Virus record (IMG/VR): IMGVR_UViG_3300009431_000124
Location: 1 to 25,737 of that record
Source of the DNA: a virus
Strand: one strand, 5' to 3'
DNA length: 25,737 bases
Shown here: positions 4,018 to 24,568 of the stretch, one piece after another
How positions within the stretch are numbered: position 1 is the stretch's first letter
Layout: each line of letters begins with the position of its first letter
Notes under the pieces: model-generated
What the model was told of the DNA's origin: nothing
What the model saw: only the letters and a program-made list of their open reading frames with translations
The model's database searches: none
Translations under genes and position numbers: made by a program

Positions 4018-4046
4018 GGTCCCTGGTCCCGGGTCCCTGGTCCCTG
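4018..4046. repeat. GGTCCCT heptamer array
   Basis: Four units between the decoration-like gene and the capsid stop codon, the only such array in the structural module. Confidence 0.8.
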
Positions 4047-14801: not shown

Positions 14802-16144
14802 TCGCCCGCCCCCTTCCTGCCTTCCGCCATGACCTTGACGGCCCTGGCGAGTTGATCGTTGAGCCAGCTCGTCAGGACGGCCTCGGGCTTTTTGACCGCT
14901 TTTCGCTTGCCGTGCTCGGCGGCGCGGAGCTGGTCCCGGAGGCTCCGGGCCTTTCCGATGGCCGCTTCGCAGAAGGCGAGCTTCGCCCCCTCGTCGAGCC
15001 CGACCGCGTCGGCCCGCTGCCAGATCCTCGCGTAGACGGGCAGGTTCTCCTTGAACAGCCTCACGGCGTTGGGCTCGCTGTAGCCGAACCCCAGCGCCCG
15101 GCACAGGACGGTCGCGAAGTCCAGGCCGCCGGCGTCTTCGCGAATCGACGCCCAGCAGCACGGATACTCCTCGTCCTTTTCGACCCGCCCCCAGACGACC
15201 GGGTCGGCAACGACCTCGCAGATCGCGCCGCCCCCCTCGCCCCCCCCGCCATCCGGAGGGACCGGGGGAGAATCGGCGCCCTGGGGCCCGTCATCTCCCT
15301 CCGGTTCCCTTCCGGCCTGGGGGCGGAGCGGATCGTCGCCGGCCGGCGGTGTCCCGTCGCCGCCGGGCGTTTCGGTTGCCCCTTCGTTCGAGTCACAGTT
15401 ACCGTTCCTGTCCGCCGTTGGTGTTTCTGTAGCGGTTCCGCTTCCGCCGTCCGCAAGGACGGCGGGTTCCCCGTTAAGGTTAGCCGTAGCGGGAACCGTA
15501 TCCGATTCTCCGCCGCCCCCCCCCGGCCGGGGTCCGTCGCGACTCCCCGGCGTGTATTGGGGTCGCGTCGGCTTGCGATCAGGCTCGTCGGGGGTCTCCG
15601 GTTTTGCCGCCGGGTCGGATGCTTGGGTGTCGGTCTCGCTGTGGGGCCTGCCGGCCTCTGAGAGGGCCTGTGCGGCAAGCTCCAGGCGGAAGGCGGTCTC
15701 GTAGTCCTCTCGGACGACGCGACCGATCTCGGGGCGTCTGAGCACGCGTAGTGCCCACGACACCTCGGCGGGTGTGACACCGATGGTCTCGGCTATTGTT
15801 TTCGGGGCGGCCGGTCGCCCCCTGTGATCGACGAGATACCCTCGCATGAAGGTCCGGTCGCCCGCGTAGCCGCACAGCAGCAGGTACATGCCGTACAGCG
15901 ACGCGCCGCCTGCCCTCAGCACCGCGCGTTTCTTTGCTTCGATGTCTCCTCTGTGAATCCCGACGGACGGCCGGGAGTTAATATAGACCTTGAAGTAGAG
16001 CAAGGGGGTCTTGTCCCCCTGTCGGTATTTGACGTCGGGCTCGAGCTGGTCCCAGTCGGCGATGCGATAGACGTACCGCGTCCTCGCGGGTCCGCTCGTC
16101 TCAGACGTCCGTGTCGTGCTGGTCACTGATTCTCTCGCCGTCAT
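14798..16144 (-). CDS. Replication-like HTH protein with long disordered linker
   Basis: 448 residues from the ATG at 16144, which lies in the 51-bp repeat (no strong ribosome site, so a later start is possible). Residues 22-165 form an N-terminal domain: YVYRIADWDQLEPDVKY, LLYFKVYINSRPSVGIHRGD, and an HTH PKTIAETIGVTPAEVSWALR (114-133). Residues about 168-307 are Pro/Gly/Thr/Asp-rich and surely disordered. Residues 308-448 form a helical C-terminal domain (FATVLCRALGFGYSEPNAV, VLTSWLNDQLARAVKVM). The architecture resembles phage replication initiators or organisers, which is inference. The stop overlaps the next ATG (ATGA). Confidence 0.65.
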   Translation of the reverse strand: MTARESVTSTTRTSETSGPARTRYVYRIADWDQLEPDVKYRQGDKTPLLYFKVYINSRPSVGIHRGDIEAKKRAVLRAGGASLYGMYLLLCGYAGDRTFMRGYLVDHRGRPAAPKTIAETIGVTPAEVSWALRVLRRPEIGRVVREDYETAFRLELAAQALSEAGRPHSETDTQASDPAAKPETPDEPDRKPTRPQYTPGSRDGPRPGGGGGESDTVPATANLNGEPAVLADGGSGTATETPTADRNGNCDSNEGATETPGGDGTPPAGDDPLRPQAGREPEGDDGPQGADSPPVPPDGGGGEGGGAICEVVADPVVWGRVEKDEEYPCCWASIREDAGGLDFATVLCRALGFGYSEPNAVRLFKENLPVYARIWQRADAVGLDEGAKLAFCEAAIGKARSLRDQLRAAEHGKRKAVKKPEAVLTSWLNDQLARAVKVMAEGRKGAGE

Positions 16145-16191
16145 CCCTGACGGGTTCGATTTCCGATTTCCGATTTCCGATTGAACGGCGG
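16141..16191. repeat. 51-bp ATTTCCG element, copy 1
   Basis: Same order as copy 2, with three tandem ATTTCCG units. The minus-strand end GTCAGGGATGA supplies the start codon used here for the replication-like gene. Confidence 0.85.
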
Positions 16192-16510: not shown

Positions 16511-16561
16511 TCATCCCTGACGGGTTCGATTTCCGATTTCCGATTTTCCATTGAACGGCGG
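16511..16561. repeat. 51-bp ATTTCCG element, copy 2
   Basis: TCATCCCTGACGGGTTCGAT then tandem ATTTCCG and TTGAACGGCGG. It is nearly identical to 16141-16191 (two differences). On the minus strand it ends GGGATGA and creates an eight-residue frame (MSSKENAE) whose TGA overlaps the ATG of the 16491 gene. Confidence 0.85.
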
Positions 16562-16578: not shown

Positions 16579-16668
16579 TCACAGGGCTATCTTCAACTTC
16601 ATACCGCAGATGTCGCACCGTCCCCCTGGTCCCAAGTCCCTGGTCCCTTGGTCCCTGCCGTCCATCAT
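16579..16668 (-). CDS. Candidate 29-residue CxxC microprotein split by a repeat
   Basis: ATG-ATG at 16668/16665 overlaps the Gp37/Gp68 stop as ATGA. The frame reads MMDG, then a heptamer array (RDQGTRDLGPGG), then RCDICGMKLKIAL and TGA. The RCDICGMKL knuckle looks like a zinc-binding motif. I infer that a tiny zinc protein existed and the repeat expanded into its 5' part without closing the frame. It may not be expressed. Confidence 0.35.
   Translation of the reverse strand: MMDGRDQGTRDLGPGGRCDICGMKLKIAL
16621..16657. repeat. GGTCCCT heptamer array
   Basis: Five or so units (CTGGTCCCAAGTCCCTGGTC region) immediately after the Gp37/Gp68 stop codon. Confidence 0.8.
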
Positions 16669-17825
16669 TCGCTCTCTCCCGTCTTCACCTTCGGATTCGT
16701 CGCGGCAAGCCCTGGTCCCAAGTCCCTGGTCCCTGGTCCCTGCCGTATCGGCATTTCATCGTGCAGTCGTCCGTCCAGGAGGCGTCCGGCGCGTTTCTTG
16801 CCGACCAGGAAAGAACACCGGCCGGGTTCCCATTCGTGATAGGTCTCGTCCGCCCACAGGCGACGGCGCACGTTCTCGGGTATGGCGTCGCGAACCTCGG
16901 TCGTCACGTGTTCCTGTGGCAGCCACTCGCCCCATTGCTTGAAGAAGAACGCCGCGCCGGCGGCGGCGCACTGGTTGCGGAGGACGCGGGGCCAGTCGGG
17001 GTGCATGGGCCGTGCGTTCGCCCGCGGCCGGGCCGTCTCGCCCCCGCAGATTACCCAGTCGAGGCCTGGGACGGCCGGCACAAGAACAGCACAACCCTTC
17101 GGGGTGGGCCGCGGTCTTCTTAGAGCATCTTGCACGCAGGTATACTTCTCGCCGTTCGGGCCGTGATGGGTGGGCCCGGCGATGTGCCGTAGGTTGACCT
17201 CCCCGAGCATGGGTTCGACGCTCACGTAGCGGACGGCGGCGGGGCATTCCAGCAGGGGCGGGATCCGCTCGTCGGCGCGGGCCTGGTTCTCGGCCGTCAC
17301 GCCGAGCCAGACGTTCGGCAGCGGCCAGGGCAGTTCCTCCAGCCAGCCGGTGTATCCGTACTCGACGACGGCCGCCCCGCGGTTGTCCGCACGTTCGCCC
17401 TGGTCGTCCTCGTCGAAGTACTCCTTCATCCGCCCGGGTCGTTTCGTGAGGACCTGGTACGTGTGGTGCGGCGTGAGGGCCATGACGGCGAACATGCGGT
17501 CGATCTGCTCGAACGGGATGGCCGGGTGGAACAGGTCCGTCCGGGATCCGACGAATACGCGGCGGGGCTTGGTCCAGTGAAGGGGCTTCTGCAGGACGTC
17601 GTCGCCCTGGTAGACGGGGCCGCGGAGAAAGTACGGCGCGGCTTTATCCCATAGGTTTCCGCCTAGGCCGTTCTTCTCCTCCGCCGTCAGACACCGGCAA
17701 CGCTTGCGGAATCGGGTGTCCTCCTCGCGGGCGGCGTAGCAGTTCTCGCAGGCCTCGCTGACTCGCGTGCAGCCGATGTACGGGTTCCACGTCGCATCCG
17801 TCCATTCGATTTTCGATTGGCTCAC
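16665..17825 (-). CDS. Phage Gp37/Gp68 family three-Cys-motif protein (DUF5131)
   Basis: 386 residues from the GTG at 17825 (GTGA overlap with the upstream stop). The N-terminus reads SKIEWTDATWNPYIGCTRVS, giving Cys19, Cys26 and Cys29 (C-x6-C-x2-C-Y), the three-Cys motif of this family. Other family stretches are VFVGSRTDLFHPAIP, TYQVLTKRPGRM, NVWLGVTAENQ, VEPMLGEV and WVICGGETARP. The three cysteines recall radical SAM enzymes, but the reaction is not known to me. The usual partner TcmP is not in this window. The last about 25 residues (QGPGTRDLGPGLAATNPKV and on) are encoded by a heptamer array plus a second dispersed repeat, so the native C-terminus appears replaced. Confidence 0.9.
   Translation of the reverse strand: MSQSKIEWTDATWNPYIGCTRVSEACENCYAAREEDTRFRKRCRCLTAEEKNGLGGNLWDKAAPYFLRGPVYQGDDVLQKPLHWTKPRRVFVGSRTDLFHPAIPFEQIDRMFAVMALTPHHTYQVLTKRPGRMKEYFDEDDQGERADNRGAAVVEYGYTGWLEELPWPLPNVWLGVTAENQARADERIPPLLECPAAVRYVSVEPMLGEVNLRHIAGPTHHGPNGEKYTCVQDALRRPRPTPKGCAVLVPAVPGLDWVICGGETARPRANARPMHPDWPRVLRNQCAAAGAAFFFKQWGEWLPQEHVTTEVRDAIPENVRRRLWADETYHEWEPGRCSFLVGKKRAGRLLDGRLHDEMPIRQGPGTRDLGPGLAATNPKVKTGESE
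16679..16710. repeat. Dispersed 32-bp repeat, copy B
   Basis: CCGTCTTCACCTTCGGATTC followed by GTCGCGGCAAGC. It matches 28 of 32 positions of copy A at 13828-13859, and each lies at the 3' end of a gene. Confidence 0.65.
16711..16742. repeat. GGTCCCT heptamer array in Gp37/Gp68 gene 3' end
   Basis: Four units in tandem, translated as QGPGTRDLGPG. It adjoins the TTCGTCGCGGC repeat copy at 16679-16710. Confidence 0.8.
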
Positions 17826-19890: not shown

Positions 19891-19927
19891 TCCCAGGTCC
19901 CGGGTCCCTTGGTCCCTCAGTCCCTGT
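19891..19927. repeat. GGTCCCT heptamer array
   Basis: About five 7-base units between the 59-residue gene and the ParB-like gene. It ends next to the AAGGAG ribosome site of the latter. Confidence 0.8.
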
Positions 19928-19932
19928 CGTTG

Positions 19933-20112
19933 TCAGATTCCGATCGCGGCTCGTGCCCGCGGGCGGATCCGCCGGTACCACGGCCGCCGGCCGGCGGCGA
20001 GTCGCCGGTGCAGCCTCTTGATGGCGGCCTTGTCGTTGGCGATCACGCCGCGCAGCAGGCAGTTCTCCGTCTCGAGCCTCGTGATGGTCCGGTTGAGTTC
20101 CGTTCTGCTCAT
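19933..20112 (-). CDS. Small basic protein, coiled-coil N-terminus
   Basis: 59 residues from the ATG at 20112, beginning MSRTELNRTITRLETENCLL and ending RARAAIGI. The first 35 residues have hydrophobic spacing typical of a short coiled coil (L6, I10, L13, C18/L19, V23); the rest is Arg-rich. It is flanked on both sides by heptamer arrays, which is odd for such a small gene. No normal Shine-Dalgarno is present; only repeat-derived AGGGAC precedes the ATG. It lies just upstream of the ParB-like gene. I do not recognise it. Confidence 0.5.
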   Translation of the reverse strand: MSRTELNRTITRLETENCLLRGVIANDKAAIKRLHRRLAAGRRPWYRRIRPRARAAIGI

Positions 20113-20161
20113 GTCCCTGGTCCCAAGTCCCTGGTCCCAAGTCCCTGGTCCCTTGGTCCCT
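20113..20161. repeat. GGTCCCT heptamer array
   Basis: About 49 bases of CTGGTCCC/AAGTCCC units. It fills the gap between the stop at 20160 and the ATG at 20112, so the AGGGAC on the coding strand directly abuts the next start codon. Confidence 0.85.
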
Positions 20162-21975: not shown

Positions 21976-22010
21976 CCCCTGGTCCCGAGTCCCTGGTCCC
22001 AGGTCCCTTG
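21976..22010. repeat. GGTCCCT heptamer array
   Basis: About four units with linker variation (CTGGTCCCGAGTCCCTGGTCC region). It lies in the short gap between the stop at 22014 and the start at 21956. Confidence 0.8.
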
Positions 22011-22376: not shown

Positions 22377-22445
22377 TCCCGGTCCCTGGTCCCTGGTCTC
22401 TGGTCCCTGGTCTCTCGTCCCTGGTCCCTTAGTCCCGAATCCCTA
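22377..22445. repeat. Long GGTCCCT heptamer array
   Basis: The longest array in the window, about 69 bases with some nine 7-base units, including variants GGTCTCT and CGTCCCT. It lies between the 22443 stop and the start of the next gene and overlaps the stop codon. Confidence 0.85.
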
Positions 22446-23292: not shown

Positions 23293-23620
23293 TGGAGCCG
23301 GCGGGAATCGAACCCGCGTGCCGAGATGGTTCGCGGCCCGGCTCACGTGCGTCCTGCTGTTTCGGCCGTAGCAGGTTGCCGTCCATCGGGGGCCCGAACT
23401 GGATTCGGGCTTCGCATCCACCAGCCGGTTTGCTCGAACCGGCAAAGCCGCCGATGTGGGGGCGAGTCGCCTATCGGCGTCGGCGGTCGCCCTGCGGCCG
23501 TCTAGGCCGCCTGTCGCATGGGAGCGGCAGTTCAGTCGTGGCAGGATTTCTATCGCGGCCCACTGCCATCCGCGGCACGTGCCTGAGCCGTTCCGCATCC
23601 GGTCGATGCCGATCGGCCCC
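23293..23620 (-). ncRNA. ssrA: tmRNA (transfer-messenger RNA)
   Basis: Rescues ribosomes stalled on broken mRNA by acting as tRNA-Ala and then as a short message. The 5' end reads GGGGCCGATCGGCATCGAC, and GGGGCCG pairs with the 3' CGGCTCC to form the acceptor stem. The 3' part has the T arm CGGG-TTCGATT-CCCG and the upstream tmRNA-like CACGTGAGCC. A pseudoknot (about 23541-23580: CGCGG/CCGCG nested with TGGCAG/CTGCCA) precedes by ten bases a short reading frame, 23502-23528, GCC through TAG, giving the tag AAPMRQAA. Further perfect hairpins at 23424-23443 and 23392-23410 fit later stems. CCA is not encoded. It is 328 bases, a normal size. Frame choice for the tag is inferred. Confidence 0.9.
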
Positions 23621-23884: not shown

Positions 23885-23957
23885 TAGCGGCGGAGGGATT
23901 CGAACCCTCGACCTCCGGGTTATGGGCCCGGTGAGATAGCCACTTCTCCACGCCGCG
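23885..23957 (-). tRNA. tRNA-Met(CAU), initiator type
   Basis: A full cloverleaf of 73 bases. The acceptor stem pairs positions 2-7 (GCGGCG/CGCCGC) with a C1 x U72 mismatch. The D stem is GAGA/TCTC giving A11:U24, the anticodon stem is CCGGG/CCCGG with loop CCCATAA, the variable loop is AGGTC, and the T arm is GAGGG-TTCGAAT-CCCTC. An unpaired 1:72, a purine 11:pyrimidine 24 and three consecutive G:C pairs at 29-31/39-41 are the identity marks of bacterial initiator tRNA. Position 33 is C rather than the near-universal U. The 3' CCA is not encoded. It lies between the lysozyme-like gene and the tmRNA, on the same strand. Confidence 0.9.
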
Positions 23958-23995: not shown

Positions 23996-24568
23996 TCAGA
24001 CGCCCTGGTCCCTGGTCCCGGGTCCCTGGTCCCTCGCGGCCCGCAGGGCCGCGCTCACCTTCCGCCAGTACTCGAGCGTCCCGGCCTCCAGGTGTCCGTC
24101 GGGTCCGCCGTTGTGCATTCGTGCCCGCTGCTGGTCTGTGGCGGCGCCGTATCGTCGCCAGTAGGCTTTGATGACGGTTTCGCAGTGGGGGCGGCTCCAG
24201 ACCAGGCTCAGGTAGTCCCACCGAACCCCGGCGGTCTGGCAGCCGTCCGTCCAGTACGCCATCCCGATCTGGTACGGGCCTCGTGAGGCCCCGCCGTCCC
24301 CCACCGCGTGATCGTTCCCGCCGGATTCGACCTGGCGGATCGCGTCGAGCAGTTTTCGATGCGGCCCTTCTGCGCCCGGTCGGGCAGTCGCAGCCGCCCC
24401 CGCGGCTGCCCTTGTGTGCCTCGCTGCGGGCGGGGAGGGCGGCGCCGCCTGCAGGTCGTCGGCCTGGACGCACCCGGCGCTGATTTTGTTCCTGTTCACT
24501 GCCCCCTGGCCCCAGGTCCCTGGTCCCCGGTCCCTGCGATCGTGGGCGTATCCGGCGGCCACGATCAC
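23996..24568 (-). CDS. Lysozyme / transglycosylase-like cell-wall hydrolase
   Basis: Likely cleaves peptidoglycan at lysis or entry. From the GTG at 24568 it is 190 residues. The enzymatic part (about 73-175) has IRQVESGGND with Glu81 as probable catalytic acid, then SRGPYQIGMAYW, and near the end RMHNGGPDG, the layout of lysozyme-like/SLT folds; Cys110 and Cys129 could pair. The start is uncertain. The frame upstream of this GTG encodes a convincing signal-anchor (FILAWLIGW running into TSVIVAAGYA) but contains no ATG, GTG or TTG nearby. An ATG at 24590 that overlaps the preceding stop is in another frame, so a frameshift or non-standard start is possible. Heptamer arrays are translated near both ends (DRGPGTWGQG; the last nine residues DQGPGTRDQ before GV). 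Confidence 0.7.
   Translation of the reverse strand: MIVAAGYAHDRRDRGPGTWGQGAVNRNKISAGCVQADDLQAAPPSPPAARHTRAAAGAAATARPGAEGPHRKLLDAIRQVESGGNDHAVGDGGASRGPYQIGMAYWTDGCQTAGVRWDYLSLVWSRPHCETVIKAYWRRYGAATDQQRARMHNGGPDGHLEAGTLEYWRKVSAALRAARDQGPGTRDQGV
24004..24034. repeat. GGTCCCT heptamer array at 3' end of lysozyme-like gene
   Basis: About four 7-base units in the usual orientation. The array encodes the C-terminal residues of the lysozyme-like protein, and its stop codon follows at once. Confidence 0.75.
24501..24537. repeat. GGTCCCT heptamer array inside lysozyme-like gene
   Basis: Imperfect tandem CTGGTCCC units on the plus strand. They are translated on the minus strand as GPGTWGQG between the membrane segment and the catalytic domain. 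Confidence 0.7.

Follow-up and report, generated by a model that had tools for sequence, protein, structure and literature searches.

Virus record IMGVR_UViG_3300009431_000124 of IMG/VR, all 25,737 bases of which make up the window analysed here, carries near one end what an earlier note took to be a phage-linked tmRNA with an unusual tag ending in QAA. This raises two questions, namely whether the phage possesses an intact tmRNA gene of its own and whether the ending of the tag gives tagged proteins a different fate. With regard to the first, positions 23620 to 23293 on the minus strand, which begin GGGGCCGAUCGGCAUCGACCGG and terminate CACGCGGGUUCGAUUCCCGCCGGCUCCA, were confirmed to be a real and complete tmRNA (ssrA) among phage genes, which had been read correctly and is ordinary of its kind. 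With regard to the second, we favour, with a probability of about 85%, the reading that the locus specifies a standard one-piece phage tmRNA of a Planctomycetota-like type, that it would act in ribosome rescue together with host factors, and that its QAA ending is no special device.

The Rfam covariance model of tmRNA (RF00023) matched the window at 23620-23290 with 45.0 bits (E 1.7e-16), covering model positions 1-374, that is, the full length of the model in order. This score, which includes a 21.5-bit composition correction, is 2 bits lower than the gathering score (the curated cut-off) of 47 bits, which is a search convention and not a biological feature. As tRNAs score up to 42 bits with the same model, 45.0 bits alone is not decisive for a tmRNA, and it is the anatomy of the RNA that decides. 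The model for permuted (two-piece) tmRNAs matched only around the T arm, with 20 bits; the RNA is a one-piece and not a permuted tmRNA, having its 5' and 3' halves in the standard order within one transcript. The two finder checks that had been proposed for this locus gave divided results: the Rfam search agreed with the earlier note on both the ends and the tag frame, while ARAGORN, with default as well as relaxed thresholds, did not report a tmRNA at 23620-23293, and such of its relaxed-threshold calls as were listed lay elsewhere in the window and were spurious. The phage tmRNA added here, apparently from a phage of Planctomycetota or their relatives, is one that was missed by ARAGORN and falls just below the Rfam cut-off, and censuses of phage tmRNAs that rely on ARAGORN will count too few of these GC-rich cases. 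A BLAST comparison with phage records gave no match to the locus, no close relative in which the locus has diverged came to light, and no promoter or terminator fitting the consensus was seen at the tmRNA. A scan for the 5'-end pattern of the tmRNA yielded one further contig, in which RF00023 sees no tmRNA.

The mature ends of the RNA, as read from the sequence, are GGGG...CUCCA, the gene being without an encoded CCA (all elements described here and below lie on the minus strand). The 5' strand of the acceptor stem (GGGGCCG, 23614-23620) forms 7/7 pairs with its 3' strand (CGGCUCC, 23294-23300), which is followed by the discriminator A at 23293, and G3 pairs with U70, the wobble that serves as the alanine identity pair for alanyl-tRNA synthetase (AlaRS). 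The adjacent T arm (GCGGG UUCGAUU CCCGC, 23301-23317), also placed here by the Rfam alignment, has 5/5 T-stem pairs. The 5' side of P2 (CGGCU + CACGUGC, 23575-23590) is complementary to its 3' side (GCACGUG + AGCCG, 23339-23350), in agreement with the Rfam pairing. PK1 (23539-23574, stems of 5 + 6 bp) lies upstream of the resume codon, and further elements towards the 3' end are the H5 hairpin (GCGGCC UAGAC GGCCGC, 23494-23510), PK2 (23449-23492, stems of 6 + 7 bp), the possible pseudoknot PK3 (23424-23448, 4 + 7 bp), an unnumbered pseudoknot (23392-23420, 4 + 7 bp), and PK4 (23353-23381, 4 + 6 bp). A search for H-type pseudoknots found six non-overlapping ones with 66 bp in total, as compared with 20.2 bp (sd 9.7) in dinucleotide shuffles, of which 0/400 attained 66 bp. 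The sixth prediction overlaps the tag and H5 and was not accepted as real, which leaves five outside the tag region. The acceptor ends, T arm, and pseudoknots that had been described by eye are upheld by the Rfam match, the fully paired acceptor stem, and pseudoknots well in excess of those in shuffles. The locus combines the features that define membership in the tmRNAs, i.e., an acceptor stem with G3-U70 and a T arm, a resume codon 3' of PK1, a stop codon in H5, and downstream pseudoknots. Judged from these features, the RNA retains intact every element required for charging with alanine, for entry, and for decoding of the tag.

The tag frame follows from the Rfam alignment. The region upstream of the resume codon (CGACUGAACU, 23529-23538) carries, like other tmRNAs, an A at -4, and the AAuUGC of the model is aligned to AACUGC, which places the resume codon, GCC, at 23528-23526 and yields AAPMRQAA as the tag. 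Read from 23528 to 23502, the frame is GCC GCT CCC ATG CGA CAG GCG GCC TAG, in which the tag codons, GCC to GCC, occupy 23505-23528 and the UAG stop codon 23502-23504; the last two tag codons form the 5' side of H5, and the stop codon lies within its loop. This is exactly the frame given in the earlier note (23502-23528), and not another one with an LAA-type ending. The same note held the tag to be unusually short; with eight encoded residues, as against mostly nine in the Planctomycetota tmRNAs that it most resembles, the predicted length is unremarkable.

The supposed link to a phage was borne out by the genes that surround the locus, which in the window include a GpA-type terminase, a lambda-type portal, an S49 protease with capsid protein, a ParB-like protein, and DUF5131. 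Another IMG/VR contig, of 35,252 bp, whose tmRNA locus is 100% identical over 431 bases and which shows 99.97% identity across the 17.5 kb that were compared, extends into genes for minor tail protein Z and the tail tube. One may nevertheless ask whether the locus is a host ssrA, situated in host DNA that flanks a prophage or picked up recently, rather than an established phage gene. The tmRNA lies 2.1 kb from a contig end at which both contigs stop, its tRNA-like domain is of the bacterial type, and a tRNA adjoins it, all of which would suit a host origin. However, no integrase was found among the open reading frames scanned in the window and the 35-kb copy, and the contig-wide repeats GGGACCAGGGAC (22 matches in the window as compared with 0.44 expected, all on the same strand) stand on either side of the tmRNA. 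Moreover, the matches listed from 392 Planctomycetota genomes are confined to the tRNA-like domain and the P2 region next to it, bar one weak 50-base match. A host gene is unlikely on this evidence, and the tmRNA is treated below as the phage's own.

The kinship of this phage tmRNA points to the Planctomycetota. Over the 66 positions of the tRNA-like domain, Planctomycetota tmRNAs have a median of 54 identical (best 60) and other sets have medians of 47-50, a contrast that is somewhat inflated by the partial selection of the Planctomycetota set for similarity to the query; Phycisphaerae tmRNAs selected by Rfam score alone also have 55-56 of 66 identical. Phycisphaerales tmRNAs have the ends GGGGCCGAUCGG...CCGGCUCCA in common with the phage tmRNA, and two of them (L055 and L086) share its resume site, AACUGCC. 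The order of acceptor, P2, PK1, tag, H5, and pseudoknots is the same as in bacterial one-piece tmRNAs of the Planctomycetota type, although there is no clear sequence similarity to them beyond the tRNA-like domain. The readable Phycisphaerae tags (ANSQLRMAA, ANDGYRLAA, ANRSYSLAA, ANNNYAMAA, plus longer forms) mostly have nine residues and an LAA or MAA end, in contrast to the eight residues and QAA end of the phage tag, whose fourth-last Arg is nevertheless seen again among them. The terminase had distant matches in 11 of 199 Planctomycetota genomes, the best about 30% identical, and a terminase search in genome contigs gave no match. Among viral contigs, the ParB-like protein and terminase led to nothing beyond the near-identical contig and a 47% terminase relative located on a contig of 6.8 kb. 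The phage is apparently one of Planctomycetota or their relatives, a placement that is tentative with terminase matches so distant.

In trans-translation, tmRNA is charged by AlaRS and delivered with SmpB, the ribosome switches templates, the tag is added, and the tagged product is degraded by ClpXP. No SmpB gene was found in the window or the 35-kb copy, and SmpB from the host would bind the phage tmRNA, which the alanyl-tRNA synthetase of the host would charge. During infection, the RNA would then free ribosomes held up on mRNAs that are broken or lack a stop codon, adding Ala-AAPMRQAA to the stalled peptides, and host ClpXP would degrade these via the terminal Ala-Ala. The most likely role is put as an auxiliary form of trans-translation that draws on SmpB, AlaRS, and ClpXP of the host, and the most likely gain for the phage is that ribosomes are kept available during infection. 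A tmRNA is present in 402 of 18,146 phage genomes, about 2% (PMC9004378), and complete ssrA genes, as found here, are known in Mycobacterium phages of the Bxz1 group and Bacillus phage G (PMC4131195), and in the Methylophilales phage Melnitz, whose tmRNA is a two-piece one, in contrast to the one-piece RNA of the present phage (PMC9004378). The phage tmRNA with a QAA tag is a further example added to those already known.

The view that a QAA ending is unusual did not hold up. Viral contigs and genomes, one per species, were scanned for the tmRNA 5' end followed at the proper distance by CAR GCN GCN stop. Among viral contigs, the pattern found 26 stretches, 22 of which have a tRNA-like domain with G3-U70; one is the second contig of the same phage, leaving 21 others. 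The genome scan gave at least 115 matches, and among those listed 90 have a tRNA-like domain and 89 also G3-U70. Two of these, the Phycisphaerales matches L055 and L086, are out of frame (their real tag is ANRSYSLAA), so that at least about 88 bacterial QAA tmRNAs are left among the matches listed. Some of the 25 of 115 listed genome matches that have no visible tRNA-like domain are chance matches in protein genes, and others are true tmRNAs that were missed by the simple domain check or cut by the sequence stretch examined. The bacterial QAA tmRNAs occur in Clostridia, Domibacillus, Acidobacteriota, Deltaproteobacteria, and Chloroflexi, with tags such as TDNNRYQLQAA (Faecalibacterium), GKQQTQLQAA (Domibacillus), NNNDYTLQAA (Agathobaculum), ANVQYAQAA (bacterium HR10), ANDYPLAQAA (a deltaproteobacterial MAG), and AGNKPLAQAA (SAR202). 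LAA is still commoner than QAA (the LAA version of the viral scan gave at least 120 matches, 47 with a tRNA-like domain among those listed), and QAA is a frequent minority type. The commonness of QAA-ending tags corrects the notion of a near-universal LAA or VAA.

The other viral-contig QAA tmRNAs (among L005-L027) are like the present one in their complete tRNA-like domain, G3-U70, and QAA end, but come from different phages and differ in the body of the tag, e.g., ANNNAHFDVAQAA or ADYALPQAA. Four of these contigs (L007, L013, L018, and L026) have similar tmRNAs with the tag ANNNAHFDVAQAA, and two (L009 and L014) have ANNNNYFEVAQAA; in the phage group with these tags, tag variation could be studied.

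The predicted tag AAPMRQAA belongs with the widespread QAA type of Ala-Ala tags and not with the LAA tags: of the ClpX degron features, it has the C-terminal Ala-Ala and lacks the Leu or hydrophobic antepenultimate residue, having Gln instead. The suggestion that this Gln might alter degradation, with tagged proteins redirected from host ClpXP or degraded at a changed rate and the fate of stalled peptides thereby altered, finds some footing in the readable tags of Phycisphaerae and other Planctomycetota, which end in LAA or MAA and not in QAA; if the host is in the Planctomycetota, the tags of phage and host would differ at one ClpX contact. Nevertheless, the terminal Ala-Ala, which AAPMRQAA keeps, is the most important ClpX element of the ssrA tag according to a structural study of ClpXP with ssrA, and mutation of the antepenultimate Leu causes only a modest rise in KM (PMC7652416). 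From this one would predict that Gln is tolerated and that the tag remains a ClpXP degron; the many bacteria with QAA in their own tmRNA lead to the same expectation. As redirection moreover depends on the tag of a host that is only tentatively placed, we regard it as distinctly improbable, and retention of the ClpXP degron as the expected behaviour of the phage tag.

A tRNA-Met(CAU) with initiator-type features (23885-23957, minus strand like the tmRNA) lies 264 bases upstream of the latter. It was found by ARAGORN and scores 59.2 bits with RF00005, with a 1:72 mismatch; by eye it has C1-U72, which is non-standard in the Rfam alignment, three G-C pairs (GGG/CCC) adjoining the anticodon loop, and A11-U24. 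A phage with an initiator tRNA adjoining its tmRNA may merit attention. It could be imagined that a phage tag unlike that of the host changes the degradation rate or protease choice during infection, together with the phage's own initiator-type tRNA, but we hold this to be very improbable; that the tag alters degradation in comparison with a host tag ending in LAA or MAA is a possibility that nothing here favours. Least probable of all is that the locus has no function, being either what remains of a tmRNA in decay or a tRNA-like piece that integration into ssrA left behind, as the score under the Rfam cut-off and the failure of ARAGORN might suggest, given that both ends are present, G3-U70 is intact, the pseudoknots lie far above shuffles, and the tmRNA shows no difference between two contigs that are slightly different in other places.

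Some minor features of the surrounding DNA may also be recorded. Downstream of the tmRNA, at a distance of about 250 bases, is a match to the DUF3800-VIII RNA (RF03075; 22980-23044, minus strand) with 40.5 bits against a cut-off of 40.2; no DUF3800 gene was seen among the open reading frames scanned. A tandem CGATTTC heptamer (3.7 perfect copies, 16157-16182) is located inside a 51-base stretch (16141-16191) that is repeated at 16511-16561. The heptamer GGGACCA forms short tandem arrays (GGGACCAGGGAC) that are dispersed and apparently mostly intergenic, at 4018-4046, 16636-16742, 19897-20161, 21977-22008, 22377-22429, 24003-24034, and 24504-24536.
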